Shown in pieces: positions 34,542 to 45,500 of a stretch of 64,000 nucleotides of DNA. The notes beneath the pieces were generated by a model. That model was not told the DNA's origin, did no database searches, and was given only the letters and a program-made list of their open reading frames with translations. The stretch spans positions 2,170,001-2,234,000 of the forward strand of contig NZ_CP080376.1 of the NCBI RefSeq assembly GCF_019443405.1. The letters are read 5' to 3'. This DNA comes from Brevundimonas sp. PAMC22021. Lineage in GTDB: Bacteria; Pseudomonadota; Alphaproteobacteria; Caulobacterales; Caulobacteraceae. Position 1 is the stretch's first letter, and each line of letters starts with the position of its first letter. Made by a program: the position numbers and the translations under genes.

Positions 34542-36700
34542 GCGGGCTCTCTTCTCGGCGCCGGCTGGGCGTAGCCGAGCCTCTGGTTCAGCTTTTCGAT
34601 CAGGTCGATGGCCGTGTCGGCGATGGCTGAACCGGGCGGATAGACCGCCGCCGCCCCCATCTCCAGCAGCGGCTGGACGTCCGAGGGCGGGATAACGCCG
34701 CCGACCACGATGGTGATGTCCGGCCGTCCCAGCTTCTCCAGCTCGGCCTTAAGCTGAGGCACCAAGGTCAAATGCCCGGCCGCGAGCGAGGAGGCCCCAA
34801 CCGCATGCACGCCCTTCTCCACCGCATCGCGCGCGGCCTCGGCCGGGGTCTGGAACAGGCTGCCGGCCGTGACGTCGAAGCCCAGGTCGCCATATCCCGT
34901 CGCCACGACCTTCTGGCCGCGATCGTGACCGTCCTGACCCAGCTTGGCGATCAGGATGCGCGGCGGCCCGCCGTCGTTCTCCACAAAGGTCGCCACCATC
35001 TCGCGAGCGCGGGCGAAGCGCGGATCGCGTCCCGCCTCGCGCGCATAGACGCCCGAAACCGTCTTCACCGAGGCCACGTGCCGGCCGAACGCCGCCTCCA
35101 GCGCGTCCGAAATCTCGCCCACCGTCGCCTTGGCCCGCGCGGCCCGCACCGCCAGTTCCAGCAGGTTCGCCTTGCCGTGCGCGCCCTGGGTCAGGGCGCC
35201 CAGCGCGGCTTGCGTCTCCGCCTCGTTCCGTTCGGCGCGCAGGCGCTTCAGCTTGTCGATCTGACGGGCGCGGACCTCGGCGTTGTCGACCTTCAGCATC
35301 GGAATGTCGTCGGGCGTATCGCTGAGATAGCGGTTCACGCCCACCACCGTCTGCTGGCCCGTGTCGATCCGCGCCTGGGTGCGGGCGGCCGATTCCTCGA
35401 TCCGCATCTTGGGCACGCCGGCCTCGATGGCCTTGGCCATGCCGCCCAGCGCCTCGACCTCCGCCATGTGGGCGCGCGCGCGTTCGGCGAGTTCGTGCGT
35501 CAGCCGCTCGACATAGAAGCTGCCGCCCCAGGGATCGATGACGCGCGTCAGGCCTGTCTCCTGCTGCAACAGGATCTGGGTGTTGCGTGCGATCCTCGCC
35601 GAGAAGTCGGTCGGCAGGGCCAGCGCCTCGTCCAGCGCATTGGTGTGCAGGCTCTGGGTCTGGCCGCCGGCCGCCGCCATGGCCTCGACCATGGTGCGAC
35701 TGACGTTGTTGAACACGTCCTGCGCCGCCAGCGACCAGCCCGACGTCTGGCAGTGCGCGCGCAGGGACAGCGAGCGCGGGTCCTTGGGCGAAAACGCCGT
35801 CTGCACCGCCTCGGCCCACAGCAGGCGCCCGGCCCGCATCTTGGCCACCTCGGTGAAGTAGTTCATGCCGATGGCCCAAAAGAAGCTGAGCCTTGGCGCG
35901 AACCGGTCCACGTCCATGCCGGCCGCCACGCCCGCGCGGATGTACTCCAGCCCGTCAGACAGGGTGTAGGCCAGCTCGATGTCGGCCGAGGCCCCCGCCT
36001 CCTGCATGTGATAGCCGGAGATGGAGATCGAGTTGAACTTCGGCGTCTCCTGCGCCGTCCAGGCGAAGATGTCCGCGATGATCCGCATCGAGGGCTCGGG
36101 CGGATAGATGTAGGTGTTGCGGACCATGAACTCCTTGAGGATGTCGTTCTGGATGGTCCCGGTCAGCGCCGCGTGCGGCACGCCCTGCTCCTCGGCCGCC
36201 GCGACATAAAGGGCCAGGACCGGCAGCACCGCGCCGTTCATGGTCATCGACACCGACATCTGGTCCAGCGGAATGCCGTCGAACAGGGTCCGCATGTCGT
36301 AGATGCTGTCGATCGCCACGCCCGCCATGCCGACGTCGCCGGTCACGCGCGGGTGGTCGGAATCGTAGCCCCGGTGCGTCGCCAGATCGAAGGCGATCGA
36401 CAGGCCCTTCTGCCCGGCCGCGAGATTGCGGCGATAGAAGGCGTTGGACTCCTCGGCGGTGGAGAAGCCCGCATACTGCCGGATCGTCCACGGATTGCCA
36501 GCGTACATGGTCGGATAGGGGCCGCGCATGAAGGGCGCGAAGCCCGGCAGGCCGTGCTGGGCCTCCAACCCTTCCAGCGCCTCGGGCCCATAGGCGGGCT
36601 GCACCGTCAGCCCCTCGGGCGTCCGCCACGGCTCGCGCGCCTGACCCTCTCCCGTCGGGGACAGGTCCAGCCGGATGGAGGAGAAGTTCGGAAAGGTCAT
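34538..36700 (-). CDS. Methylmalonyl-CoA mutase, large (catalytic) subunit
   Basis: 720 residues from ATG at 36700. It isomerises (2R)-methylmalonyl-CoA to succinyl-CoA with adenosylcobalamin. The TIM barrel carries [18 protein letters not shown] and [19 protein letters not shown]. The C-terminal B12-binding domain has the cobalt-ligand motif DGHDRG (Asp590, His592, Gly595) and [14 protein letters not shown]. The frame extends to 37273 inside the next gene and that part is ignored. Start overlaps the small-subunit stop by four bases. Confidence 0.96.
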
Positions 36701-38078: not shown

Positions 38079-39260
38079 TCAGGCCAGCTCGACCGCCATG
38101 GCCACGGCCTCGCCGCCGCCGATGCACAGCGACGCCACGCCCTTGGAGCCGCCCCGCGCCTTAAGCGCCGAGATCAGGGTCGCCAGCACCCGCGCGCCGG
38201 AGGCGCCGATCGGATGGCCCAGCGCACAGGCGCCGCCGTTCACATTCACCTTGGCGTGGTCGATGTTCATCTCGCGCATGGCGATCATCGGAACCACCGC
38301 AAAGGCCTCGTTGATCTCCCACAGGTCCACGTCGTCCACCGACCAGCCCGCCTTCTTCAGCGTCTTCTGCATCGCCGGCACAGGGGCGGTGGTGAAGTGA
38401 CCGGGCGCATGCGCGTGCGCGGCGTGGCTGACCACGCGCGCCAGGATCGGCAGCCCCAGCGCCTCGGCTGTGCTCTGGCGCGTCATCACCACGGCGGCCG
38501 CGCCGTCCGAGATCGAAGACGCGTTGGCGGCGGTGATGGTCCCGTCCTTGGAGAAGGCGGGTTTCAGCGTCGGGATCTTGGCCGGATCGGCCTTGGTCGG
38601 CTGTTCGTCGACGGCGACCGTCTCCACGCCCTTGCGGGTCTTGACCTCGACCGGGACGATCTCGGAGGCGAAGCCGGCTCCGGTCGCGGCGGCGCGGGCG
38701 CGGTTCAGGCTTTCGACCGCATAGTCGTCCATGGCCTGGCGGGTGAACTGGTATTCGGCCGCCGTCTCCTCGGCGAAGGCGCCCATCAGCTTGCCCGTGT
38801 CATAGGCGTCTTCCAGCCCGTCCAGGTACATGCTGTCGGAGATCACGTCGTGGCCGATCCGGGCGCCGCCGCGGTGCTTGGCCATGACGTAGGGCGCGCC
38901 GGTCATGGACTCCATACCGCCGGCCACGATCACGTCGGCGGTCTCGGCCTTCAACGCATCGTGCGCCATCATCACGGCCTGGAGGCCCGAGCCGCACATC
39001 TTGTTGACGGTGGTCGCCTCCACATGCTGGCCCAGCCCGGCGCCGATCGCCGCCTGGCGCGCCGGCGCCTGGCCCAGACCGGCCGACAGCACGCAGCCCA
39101 TGTAGATCTGCTCGACCTTGTCGGCCGAAACGCCCGCGCGCTCGACCGCCGCCCTGACCGCGACGGCGCCCAGTTCGGTGGCCTTCACGCCGGACAGCGC
39201 GCCTTGGAAGCCGCCCATCGGCGTGCGCGCGACGGAGCAGATGACGACCGGATCGGACAT
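38079..39260 (-). CDS. Acetyl-CoA acetyltransferase (thiolase)
   Basis: 393 residues from ATG at 39260. Catalytic residues are visible: nucleophile Cys89 in NKMCGSGLQAV, His349 in GHPIGASGA, and Cys379 in LCIGGGEA. It catalyses reversible condensation or cleavage of acetoacetyl-CoA (or a longer beta-ketoacyl-CoA). In this operon it could feed propionyl-CoA from branched-chain amino acid or odd-chain fatty acid breakdown into the carboxylase. Substrate preference cannot be told from sequence. Confidence 0.93.
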   Translation of the reverse strand: MSDPVVICSVARTPMGGFQGALSGVKATELGAVAVRAAVERAGVSADKVEQIYMGCVLSAGLGQAPARQAAIGAGLGQHVEATTVNKMCGSGLQAVMMAHDALKAETADVIVAGGMESMTGAPYVMAKHRGGARIGHDVISDSMYLDGLEDAYDTGKLMGAFAEETAAEYQFTRQAMDDYAVESLNRARAAATGAGFASEIVPVEVKTRKGVETVAVDEQPTKADPAKIPTLKPAFSKDGTITAANASSISDGAAAVVMTRQSTAEALGLPILARVVSHAAHAHAPGHFTTAPVPAMQKTLKKAGWSVDDVDLWEINEAFAVVPMIAMREMNIDHAKVNVNGGACALGHPIGASGARVLATLISALKARGGSKGVASLCIGGGEAVAMAVELA

Positions 39261-39294
39261 GATGTTTCCCTGAACTTTCTTGTTGTTCTGCAGC

Positions 39295-41274
<1,980 letters not shown>

Positions 41275-41297
41275 TGCAAATCTCAGTCGATAAGGTT

Positions 41298-42035
41298 TCA
41301 GGTCTTAGCCAAACGCTGCAGCGCTGCCATGTAGCGGTAAATCTCTTCTCGCTCGTCCATAAACCCTTGCTTAAATTCACCTGCCGACAGACCTGACTTA
41401 ACTTGCGTAAGACCAAGTTTTTTCAGATAATTTCTGACGACCGGACCTGCAAACGTCCTAGTTTTCTTACTGAACTTAACACCACCAACATCCGTGTTAA
41501 TGCTAAACGACCGTCCACCGTCGGTTTTTTTCACTCTAGCTCCCGCCAGTTCCGACATCTTGATGAAGTCATTTGCAGATGTTGTGCCAAATCTATTGTC
41601 TAGCGCCTCAGTATTTTGAGACAGCCATTGGGAAATTTCGATCACAATCTGATCGACATTTCTTGCATTGCTATCCGGAAAATTATCAGCGGTCACATCT
41701 AGCGTGAAATTATATAGCAAATCATCATCTACATTCCGGCACAGAACCTTGTCATTTCTATGCAAAGAAGTGAGCATAGCAACGAGAGCAGTTCTCTTGT
41801 TTCCGTTATGGAATGCGTGATTTTTTATAAGGCTATGAAATAGAGCTGCGGTTTTTTCGGTAAGCGTTTTGTACTTATCCACACCTCCAATCCCAGTGTG
41901 CGGCCTTTGACACGCAGACTCTAGCAACCCCTCGCTCTTCACACCTGGAGGCGAGATAGGATCTTCGGATTTTTCAAATACATCTACAAGCTCAAAGTGT
42001 ATTCGACGAACATCTTCTACATTAGGAAACCACAT
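41298..42035 (-). CDS. Fic/Doc-family protein with C-terminal extension, AT-rich insertion
   Basis: 245 residues. The Doc-type active-site motif H73-A-F-H-N-G-N-K80-R81 lies in SLIKNHAFHNGNKRTAL, with the typical upstream GLLESACQRP block. Lysine in place of the Fic glycine matches Doc, which phosphorylates EF-Tu rather than AMPylating. Typical Doc is about 125 residues; here about 110 more follow, and residues 155-210 resemble a HicA-like fold. Two 60-base rows counted by hand have 40% and 35% GC, far below the flanks. The gene starts 6 bases after the pccB stop and ends 23 bases before pccA. No Phd-like antitoxin gene is adjacent. Confidence 0.85.
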   Translation of the reverse strand: MWFPNVEDVRRIHFELVDVFEKSEDPISPPGVKSEGLLESACQRPHTGIGGVDKYKTLTEKTAALFHSLIKNHAFHNGNKRTALVAMLTSLHRNDKVLCRNVDDDLLYNFTLDVTADNFPDSNARNVDQIVIEISQWLSQNTEALDNRFGTTSANDFIKMSELAGARVKKTDGGRSFSINTDVGGVKFSKKTRTFAGPVVRNYLKKLGLTQVKSGLSAGEFKQGFMDEREEIYRYMAALQRLAKT

Positions 42036-42041
42036 AATGCC

Positions 42042-43583
42042 TCACAACGGAATATTGTCGTGCTTCTTCCAGGGGTTCTCCTGGACCTTGTTCTTCAGCG
42101 TCCGCAGCGCCTTCACCAGCCGCCGCCTTGTCCCGTGCGGCATGATGACGTCGTCGATGTATCCCAGCCCCGCCGCCACGAACGGGTTGGCGAAGCGCTC
42201 CTTGTATTCGGCCTCGCGGTCCGCCAAGGCGTCAGGATCGCCGGCCTCCTTGCGGAAGATGATCTCGACCGCCCCCTTGGCGCCCATCACCGCGATCTCG
42301 GCCGAGGGCCAGGCGTAGTTGACGTCGCCGCGCAGGTGTTTGGAGCTCATCACGTCATAGGCGCCGCCATAGGCCTTGCGCGTGATCACCGTCAGCTTGG
42401 GCACGGTGGCCTCGGCATAGGCGAACAGCAGCTTGGCCCCGTGCTTGATCAGGCCGCCGTATTCCTGGCGCGTGCCGGGCATGAAGCCGGGCACGTCCAC
42501 CAGCGTCACCAGCGGGATGTGGAAGGCGTCGCAGAAGCGCACGAAGCGCGCGGCCTTGCGGCTGCTGTCGATGTCCAGCACGCCGGCCAGCACCTGCGGC
42601 TGGTTGGCGACGATGCCCACCGGCTGGCCGTCCAGCCGGCCGAAGCCGCACACGATATTGCGGGCGAAGTCGGCGCCGATCTCGAAGAAGTCGGCCTCGT
42701 CCACGACCTTCCCGATCAGTTCCTTCATGTCGTAGGGCTGGTTGGGATTGGCGGGCACCAGGGTGTCCAGGCTGGGCTCGTCCCGCTCCGGCTCGTCATA
42801 GCTGTCGCGCACCGGCGGCTTTTCGCGGTTCGACAGCGGCAGAAAGCCGATCAGGCGCCGCACCTCGGCCAAGGCCTCAAGGTCATTCTCGAACGCGCCG
42901 TCCGCCACGCCCGACTTGCCGGCGTGAACGCGGGCGCCGCCCAGGTCCTCGTGGCTGACCACCTCATTGGTGACGGTCTTCACCACGTCGGGGCCGGTCA
43001 CGTACATGTAGGAGGTGTCCTTCACCATGAAGATGAAGTCGGTGATGGCGGGCGAATAGACGTCGCCGCCCGCGCACGGGCCCATGATGACGCTGATCTG
43101 CGGAATGACGCCCGAGGCCAGCGTGTTCTGCAGAAAGATGTCGGCATAGCCGGCCAGGCTCTCGACACCCTCCTGGATGCGCGCGCCGCCGGCGTCGAAC
43201 AGGCCGATGATCGGCGCACCGTTGGTCAGGGCCATCTTCTGGATCTTGACGATCTTGGCCGCGTGCGCCCCCGACAGCGATCCGCCGAAGACGGTGAAGT
43301 CCTTGGAGAAGACATAGACCAGCCGCCCGCCGATGGTCCCGCGCCCGGTCACCACGCCGTCGCCGGGGATGCGCTGCTTTTCCATGCCGAAGTCGTGGGA
43401 GCGATGCTCCACGAACATGTCGGTTTCCTCAAAGGAGCCTTCGTCCAGCAGCACCTCGATCCGCTCGCGCGCCGTCAGCTTGCCCTTGGCGTGCTGGGCC
43501 GCGATGCGCGTCTCGCCCCCGCCCAGCCGGGCGACCGCGCGCCGGCGCTCCAGTTCGTCGATGATCGACTGGCTCATAGACAT
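42042..43583 (-). CDS. pccB: Propionyl-CoA carboxylase, beta (carboxyltransferase) subunit
   Basis: 513 residues from ATG at 43583 (ATG at 43577 also in frame). The two crotonase-like halves carry [54 protein letters not shown] and [20 protein letters not shown]. The ending HDNIPL is the classical PccB terminus. It transfers carboxyl from biotin of PccA to propionyl-CoA. First gene of the operon; its promoter should lie in the 213 bases shared with the divergent MFS gene. Confidence 0.96.
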
Positions 43584-43796
43584 CCTCGCCCTGATGCGAC
43601 GCCGTCGCCGCCGTGGATCGACGGTCGCGGTTCGCGTGCGCCGGACGCCGCATGCGCCCGTCCCGACCCTCTGCGCCGGTCGTTCGATCCTGTGAAGGGG
43701 CGCCCCCAATGTCAAACCGGGGCAAGGACTTGCCGGCGACGGCGAATAAGGCGCGCATGGGGGCAACAGCCGTCCCGCTGAACCGTTTGCAGGCCC

Positions 43797-45500
43797 ATGC
43801 CGTCCGTCGCCGATACGCCCTCCCAAGCCTCGCCCCCGCCGGCCGACACGCCCCCCGCCATGCCGACCTCGCCGTGGGCCCTGCCGATCTTTCGGGCGGT
43901 GTGGCTGGCCAGCATGGCGTCGAACTTCGGCGGACTGATCCAGTCGGTCGGCGCCTCGTGGATGATGACCTCGCTGGACGCCTCGCCCCAGATGATCGCC
44001 CTGGTCCAGGCCTCGACCACGCTTCCGATCATGCTGCTGTCGCTTTGGGCCGGAGCGGTCGCGGACAATCTGGATCGACCCTGGGTCATGCTGTCGGCGC
44101 AGGGCTTCATGCTGACGGTGTCGATCGTGCTGGCCGCCTGCGCCTGGGGCGGGGTGCTGACGCCGTGGCTGCTGCTGGGCTTCACCTTCCTGATCGGCTG
44201 CGGCACCGCCATCAACAATCCGGCCTGGCAGGCCTCGGTCGGCGACATGGTCCCGCGCTCTGTCCTGCCCACCGCCGTGGCGCTGAACAGCATGGGCTTC
44301 AACATCGCCCGCAGCCTGGGTCCGGCCATCGGCGGGGTGATCGTCGGCACCTTCGGCGCGGCGGCGGCCTTTCTGACCAACGCCTTCAGCTATGTCGCCC
44401 TGATCGTGGTGCTGGCCCGCTGGCGCCCCGCGCGCCCGCCGCGCCTGTTGCCGCGCGAGAAGCTGGGCATGGCGATGGAGGCGGGGCTTCGCTACGTCGC
44501 CCTGTCGCCCGGCATACGACGCGTGCTGTTCCGGGCCTGTGTCTTCGGCTTGGCCGCCAGCGCCGTGCCGGCCCTGATGCCGCTGGTGGCGCGCGACCTA
44601 GTGGGCGGCGGACCGTTCGTCTACGGCCTGCTGCTGGGCGCTTTCGGCGTGGGCGCGGTCGGCGGAGCCCTGTCATCCACCCGCCTGCGGCAGCGTCTGT
44701 CGGCCGAATGGATCGTGCGGGTCGCCTCGATGGGTCTCGCGGCCGGGGCCGCCGGCGCGGCGCTCAGCCCCACGCTGGTTCTGACCCTGCCGTGCCTCGC
44801 CCTTGCCGGCGCCGGCTGGGTGCTGGCGTTGTCGACCTTCAACGTCACGGTACAGATATCGGCCCCGCGCTGGGTCGTGGCCCGGGCGCTCGCGCTTTAT
44901 CAGATGGCGGCCTTTGGCGGCATGGCGGCCGGCAGCTGGATCTTCGGCGGCCTGGCCGGGGATCATGGCGTAGCCACCGCCCTGCTCGCCGCCGCGGCGG
45001 TTCAGCTCGGCGGCGCGTTGCTGGGCTTCCTTCTGCCCGTCCCGCGCATGCAGATGCTGGACCTGGATCCGCTCGGTCGTTTCCAGGAGCCGGAGACCGC
45101 CGTCCCGGTCGAGCCGCGCACCGGCCCGGTGGTGGTCACCATCGAATATCGGATCGCGCCCGAGCGGGTCGTCGCCTTCCTCCACGTCATGACCGAGCGC
45201 CGCCGCATCCGCCGCCGCGACGGCGCCAAGCACTGGACCCTGCTGCGCGACCTGGGCGAGCCCGACCTGTGGATCGAGCGCTATCATGTGGCGACCTGGC
45301 TGGACTATGTCCGCCACAACCAGCGCCGCACCAAGGCCGATGTGGACAACAGCGACGCCATCCTGGCCCTGCATTCCGGCCCCGAGCGCCCACGCGTCCA
45401 CCGCATGATCGAGCGCCAGACCAGCACCCTGCCCTGGTCGCGCCATGTCGATCCGCGCGAAATGACCGACGCCCTGACCGACCCGACCCGCTCCACATAA
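43797..45500 (+). CDS. MFS exporter (EntS-like) with extra C-terminal domain
   Basis: 567 residues. About 415 residues form a 12-helix MFS transporter of the EntS/MFS_3 group ([55 protein letters not shown]). From about residue 450 a soluble domain follows ([40 protein letters not shown]), which resembles the antibiotic biosynthesis monooxygenase (ABM) ferredoxin-like fold. The transported substrate is unknown. A longer overlapping frame from 43613 is a shadow. Confidence 0.9.

Follow-up and report, generated by a model that had tools for sequence, protein, structure and literature searches.

Why does a Doc-type Fic gene lie alone between pccB and pccA, which encode the carboxyltransferase and biotin-carrying subunits of propionyl-CoA carboxylase, in the genome of Brevundimonas sp. 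PAMC22021? We examined this question in a stretch of 64,000 nucleotides (contig NZ_CP080376.1, positions 2,170,001 to 2,234,000; hereafter, the window) and at the corresponding junctions of related genomes. What is striking about the locus is not the lack of an antitoxin gene but the slot that the Fic gene occupies: pccB ends at a recurrent hotspot, where empty and variously filled states occur at one core-gene border. The explanation that we favor, to which we assign a probability of about 0.57 when taken as a whole, combines this hotspot with the turnover of its contents by recombination, and views the Fic protein as a stand-alone effector with Doc and HicA folds whose likeliest role would be in phage defence.

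The Fic gene and its flanks

An earlier note, prepared from the sequence alone, described a low-GC gene for a 245-residue Fic/Doc protein with an intact HxFxNGNKR motif, placed in operon orientation between two whole genes and adjoined by no antitoxin gene, and this description is confirmed. The open reading frame (245 codons), the Pfam Fic family (above its cut-off at E 9e-13, residues 5-89) and the NCBIfam model TIGR01550 DOC_P1 (51.9 bits, the cut-off being 38.65) all agree on the gene that fills the gap (Table 1). Its ATG, with GAGG just 5' of it, lies 6 nt past the pccB stop codon, and its own stop codon ends 23 bp ahead of the pccA ATG; the gene would use a ribosome-binding site of its own and be expressed by read-through from pccB. 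Its GC content is about 0.44 (0.43-0.45), compared with mostly 0.65-0.70 (about 0.67) in the flanks, and the difference is larger at third codon positions (GC3 of 0.42, vs. 0.89 for pccB and 0.91 for pccA). Both flanking genes contain the expected Pfam domains, and the true start of pccB is probably near residue 80 of the listed reading frame, since the alignments of many relatives begin only at residues 70-85. The Fic gene has pccB and pccA as its sole flanking genes: the junction holds no other non-overlapping reading frame of at least 50 codons (a 66-codon frame runs antisense inside the Fic gene), and scans found no tRNA between positions 36000 and 48000 and no Rfam match at the gathering score between 39000 and 44500. 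On the far side of pccA, a thiolase-like gene (window positions 38079-39311) separates pccA from the next conserved gene; it was not found there in the loci of 38 relatives that hold both of these neighbors.

Table 1. Features of the pccB-pccA junction, in window coordinates
Feature	Position	Strand	Basis
pccA, biotin-carrying subunit, downstream flank	39295..41274	-	Pfam
Variable slot, pccB stop codon to pccA start, 770 bp	41275..42044	-	
Solitary Doc-type Fic gene, junction cargo	41298..42035	-	ORF, Pfam, TIGR01550
C-terminal helices and conserved RLAKT tail, residues 226-245	41301..41360	-	Alignment
Predicted HicA-fold domain, alpha-beta-beta-beta-alpha, about residues 150-212	41400..41588	-	Structure model, Foldseek
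Fic/Doc domain, Doc fold, about residues 1-148	41592..42035	-	Pfam; Foldseek
Catalytic motif HAFHNGNKR, residues 73-81	41793..41819	-	Alignment, 65 rows
pccB, carboxyltransferase subunit, upstream flank	42042..43826	-	ORF as listed; Pfam Carboxyl_trans
AT-rich last five codons of pccB, beside left edge of cargo	42045..42059	-	GC3, 111 genomes

Occupancy of the pccB 3' end

All of the 131 genomes of the genus that we searched for pccB yielded some match at a loose cut-off, and the 3' end of the gene was readable in 114, the other 17 being left out for want of a match reaching the C-terminus. The junction is empty in 16 of these 114 genomes (i.e., pccA follows after 11-14 bp, with the stop codon counted), and 37 have between 323 and 1718 bp of cargo ahead of pccA; in two of them the measurement runs to a truncated copy of pccA, and the complete gene is found at 1615 and 2332 bp. 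The remaining 61 have no pccA in the fetched stretch, which sometimes ends at the end of a contig. When pccA is adjacent, the junction is thus occupied in 37 of 53 cases, and by varied genes. Several cargoes have a start codon that overlaps the pccB stop, and some abut or overlap the start of pccA. Reading frames that lie on the same strand, span at least 100 amino acids, have a GC3 below 0.72 and start no more than 60 nt from the pccB stop occur in 31 of the 37 filled junctions and in 28 of the 61 pccA-less genomes (being absent from the other 33), as against 8 of the 100 positions that were examined as controls further downstream. Cargo GC is lower than that of both flanks in only 25 of the 37, partly because the 5' end of pccA is itself AT-rich.

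This variability sets the junction apart from three others, which served as controls in place of a whole-genome survey and vary far less. Among 40 loci of about 20 kb, the distance between pccB and pccA ranges from 11 to 2332 bp and exceeds 250 bp in 28. The corresponding ranges are -4 to 11 bp for R08-R07 and 803 to 1335 bp for pccA-R08 (each in 38 of 40 loci), R08 being by our reading a methylmalonyl-CoA mutase gene with an over-called start; and two tolQ/tolR-like genes at another place in the window (named by reading) are -19 to 24 bp apart in 29 of the 30 loci, the last being unmeasurable.

The comparison of relatives bears directly on the origin of the Fic gene, which the earlier note had attributed to a recent horizontal transfer into the junction. 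Acquisition into the junction is supported, in that most relatives lack the gene, a Fic gene is present at just two of the 114 readable pccB ends, and empty junctions exist; its portrayal as a single recent insertion does not survive, because the site fills recurrently and with varied genes. The proposal that an orphan Doc toxin arrived in a one-off transfer would accommodate the low GC of the gene and its absence from every other readable junction save for that of one distant relative on the opposite strand, but the prevalence of filled junctions makes this arrival one event of a series. The occupancy survey already contradicts a one-off event as a sufficient account, and we regard it as quite improbable.

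The second Fic gene at this junction, that of genome G020, matches the first from end to end in a profile comparison (234 columns, probability 99.9, 37% identity) and has the same RLAKT end. It would be surprising for one family to reach the same junction twice, independently, if the site were not favored. The reversed orientation of this second copy also bears on the idea that regulation of propionyl-CoA carboxylase or of propionate metabolism is the function of the Fic protein and the reason for its operon position: orientation and position in PAMC22021 are what such a role would predict, but Fic is not conserved at the junction and its relatives elsewhere adjoin unrelated genes, leaving a regulatory role very hard to credit.

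The contents of the slot are diverse. Clustering by blastp (E 1e-6) resolves the cargoes of the 37 filled junctions into about 24 types, treating the two Fic genes as a single type, and six cargo families follow pccB in loci of both kinds, those with an adjacent pccA and those lacking one. Those situated before pccA include the two Fic genes in their opposite orientations, TIR effectors, a NucS-like nuclease and a HATPase-STAS pair, and those behind pccB in pccA-less genomes include Mrr, RES and another TIR gene. We compared 30 occupants with Pfam, taking one per type where possible, including the Fic gene and leaving out the GIY-YIG and phosphatase-like types. Eight matched families of defence or toxin type (two Fic, a CAP12-type TIR, TIR_2, NucS_C, RES and two Mrr), one matched DUF4145/HEPN, one was the HATPase-STAS pair, three matched another DUF, four gave sub-threshold matches only, and 13 had none. 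PADLOC, applied to 20 of the occupants besides the Fic gene, assigned Mrr to a type IV restriction enzyme (3e-73), TIR to TIR-TM (8e-32) and DUF4145 to PD-T7-4 (8e-9), and returned no match for 10. A possible enrichment for defence functions is suggested within this chosen sample, at 8 of 30 occupants, with 13 of the 30 lacking a Pfam match and 7 matching a DUF or falling below the cut-off.

Certain loci require caution in how their cargo is read. In eight of the 37 (L017, L018, L031, L039, L046, L074, L087 and L128), the cargo appears to be a GIY-YIG-like gene (identified by reading) on the other strand with palindromic repeats on its flanks, and the same-strand reading frames of these loci may be antisense and not real. 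The GIY-YIG-like unit is also present in L200 and L204, and its repeats translate as SSSGLSRGS or WILGTRPRMT. In L061 (genome G100), the 323-bp cargo continues in frame into pccA with no stop codon, and, judging from the reading frame, may extend the biotin-carrying subunit at its N-terminus.

Filled junctions also occur outside of the genus. From 40 genomes of other genera in the family, many of them picked for a weak Fic match, 26 matched pccB at E 1e-150 and provided 28 readable loci. pccA was within reach in five of the 28, at distances of 5, 13, 148, 596 and 1204 bp, and in L172, a locus without pccA, the pccB stop is overlapped by a gene of low GC (GC3 of 0.57); 28 loci are too few to call the site a hotspot at this level. 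Core-gene-bounded defence hotspots are known from Pseudomonas aeruginosa, and the pccB slot resembles them in its fixed core-gene borders, its varied cargo, some of it of defence type, and in apparently needing no integrase. It differs from them in having room for about one gene, in lying inside a metabolic operon and in the tight contact that its cargo often makes with both neighbors.

Proposed exchange of cargo at the slot

The explanation that we favor views the pccB 3' end as a hotspot that receives single accessory genes, of which the Fic gene is one. In many genomes this slot would lie inside a pccB-pccA operon; its occupants, having no integrase of their own, would be replaced from species to species, the most probable mechanism being homologous or homology-assisted recombination in the pcc flanks. 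In every locus read, pccB ends in the same eight residues, and unrelated sequence starts at the last base or the stop codon of the gene. The final codons are also peculiar in composition: across 111 genomes, the D-N-I codons have GC3 values of 0.41, 0.34 and 0.15, against a mean of 0.92 for the codons that precede them.

A constant edge of this sort, an unusually AT-rich one, and the use of the same slot with different downstream neighbors would all be expected if the slot were the target of a site-specific element, i.e., if an integrase acting in trans recognized the pccB 3' end and inserted single-gene cassettes. But no integrase was present among the 30 occupants scanned with Pfam, no repeat of the pccB end was found on the far side of the cargo (searches downstream with the last 24 nt, on both strands, did no better than shuffled queries), and sequence of a foreign type extends into pccA in two genomes. 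We consider a site-specific element unlikely. Two of its possible signatures were evaluated on their own. As a recognition site, the AT-rich codons give a strong signal (none of the 16 empty-junction genomes has the AT-ending Asn codon), but one that is partly confounded with clade, because 13 of those 16 genomes fall into two related clades by pccA. As a target-site duplication, matches to the pccB end stay at the shuffled level and are not evidence for an integrase.

That cargo is exchanged through recombination in the flanks is the simplest reading of the sequences of four genomes. Two of these (L209 and L211) have pccA genes whose first 40 nt are 0.93 and 0.97 identical to the type of another clade and 0.83 identical to the empty members of their own, while the last 50 nt of their pccB are identical to those of their own clade. 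The foreign type of pccA start occurs in both filled and empty members of the clade to which it belongs. The other two (L200 and L204) are close relatives with different first cargoes, and each has a 107-nt truncated copy of the pccA 5' end situated after the first cargo and ahead of further sequence, which is followed by the real pccA. A blastn search of the cargoes against the pcc ends recovered these two copies and, in pccA-less loci, three short matches that resemble chance.

An origin of the truncated copies in a foreign clade did not hold up: their identity is 0.90 to the pccA of the same genome and 0.92-0.93 to the best-matching other pccA, and over the first 72 nt they match the pccA of the same genome at 0.99. 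The copies still point to recombination or duplication, and, because they are common to both genomes (0.97 identity), may go back to a single old event, with the first cargo replaced afterwards. This comparison slightly lowered our confidence in the favored explanation and slightly raised that in an integrase. Moreover, flank recombination leaves the preference for the pccB end unaccounted for.

The Fic protein and its solitary state

The Fic domain is predicted to adopt the fold of phage P1 Doc (Foldseek matches to 3k33/3dd7, TMt 0.87-0.88), and its catalytic motif is of the HxFx(D/N)(A/G)NKR type common to both proteins, in which Lys stands where AMPylating Fics have Gly. All of its residues other than A74 and H76 are invariant across 65 of 65 aligned homologs. 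P1 Doc consists of a single Fic domain of about 126 amino acids and exerts its toxicity by phosphorylating EF-Tu. The protein encoded at the pccB junction is twice as long, its additional portion comprising a predicted HicA-fold domain and a conserved tail in which R234, L242 and A243 are invariant and K244 and T245 are each present in 63 of 65 homologs; and its gene is adjoined by no Phd gene.

The assignment of the C-terminal domain derives from a structure model of 101 residues (mean pLDDT 75.9, with block means of 89-93 over model residues 11-60). Its top Foldseek matches are five HicA or HicA-like chains (6hpb, 6g26, 5yrz and 4p78, all HicA mRNA interferases, and 1whz, which we take to be HicA-like) at a weak E-value of 0.14, and no Pfam family, HicA_toxin included, was reported for residues 145-245, in a scan from which weak matches can be filtered out. 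Unlike in HicA, the domain is fused to Fic, no HicB-like gene adjoins it, and the catalytic His is not conserved: the column, as matched to HicA by eye, has Phe177 in this protein and His in 15 of 65 rows.

The earlier note considered the absence of a partner unusual, which the search around family members in other hosts does not bear out. In all five relatives whose neighborhoods were read (L130, L003, L161, L163 and L162), no antitoxin-like gene was present beside the Fic gene among reading frames of at least 70 amino acids (50 for L130). The gap to the upstream neighbor is 70 bp in L003, 173 bp in L161, 53 bp in L163 and 21 bp in L162, and in L130 a 57-codon reading frame overlaps the upstream end of the Fic gene. 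Standing alone is not unusual for this Fic family, whose member in PAMC22021 possesses the extra HicA-fold domain. Were the protein instead a conventional toxin, a Phd-type antitoxin would have to be supplied from elsewhere in the genome, which does contain three PhdYeFM matches above the cut-off. But all three are about 400 kb or more away, and the solitary state of the five relatives also argues against such an arrangement, making it improbable.

The favored explanation instead places control within the protein. It would be a Doc-type Fic phosphotransferase joined to a HicA-fold domain that probably binds RNA, and most likely acts as a stand-alone growth-arrest effector kept in check by its own C-terminal half, i.e., as a self-contained accessory effector, possibly directed against phages. 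A different built-in brake, the Fic inhibitory motif [ST]xxxE[GN], was sought and set aside: it occurs in 9 of 65 homologs at scattered positions and is absent from this protein.

Phage defence would be the likeliest use of such an effector, a preference that we hold with perhaps slightly less than even confidence and that draws upon its neighbors in the slot, its Doc-type catalytic domain and the partial relatives encoded by Vibrio phages. Using tblastn, matches confined to the Fic part were obtained in five plasmid records (residues 6-116) and in four phage records, three from Vibrio and one from Gordonia, with the Vibrio matches covering residues 3-157 in two pieces. One of the three Vibrio phages (PQ189365.1) is of the filamentous class. 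These plasmid and phage matches do not account for the junction. In PADLOC, the Fic gene matches PDC-S23 candidates, again over the Fic domain only.

It is a tentative proposition, and one toward whose negation we lean somewhat, that this is both a dedicated one-gene slot, in many genomes within a core metabolic operon, through which single genes, a good part of them of defence type, pass between species by flank recombination, and the site of a new effector in which a Doc-type Fic is wired to a dead, RNA-binding HicA-fold domain. If true, every occupant of unknown function would be a candidate for a new defence gene. Solitary genes within a metabolic operon could escape ordinary searches for defence islands, for which the slot offers a defined place to look, and it would provide a clean system for learning how single genes spread when they carry no mobility functions. 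The fusion of Doc and HicA folds would itself exemplify a toxin with no separate antitoxin.

A search for related loci with the Fic protein alone recovered four distant ones. Among the solitary relatives, that of L162 (positions 1042-2262) has an additional N-terminal domain of about 140 amino acids, and that of L003 (1159-2073), which belongs to a different species of the genus, encodes a protein of 304 amino acids that is about 29-35% identical to the one described here and is situated not behind pccB but between aldehyde dehydrogenase-like and AsnC-like regulator genes (both named by reading).
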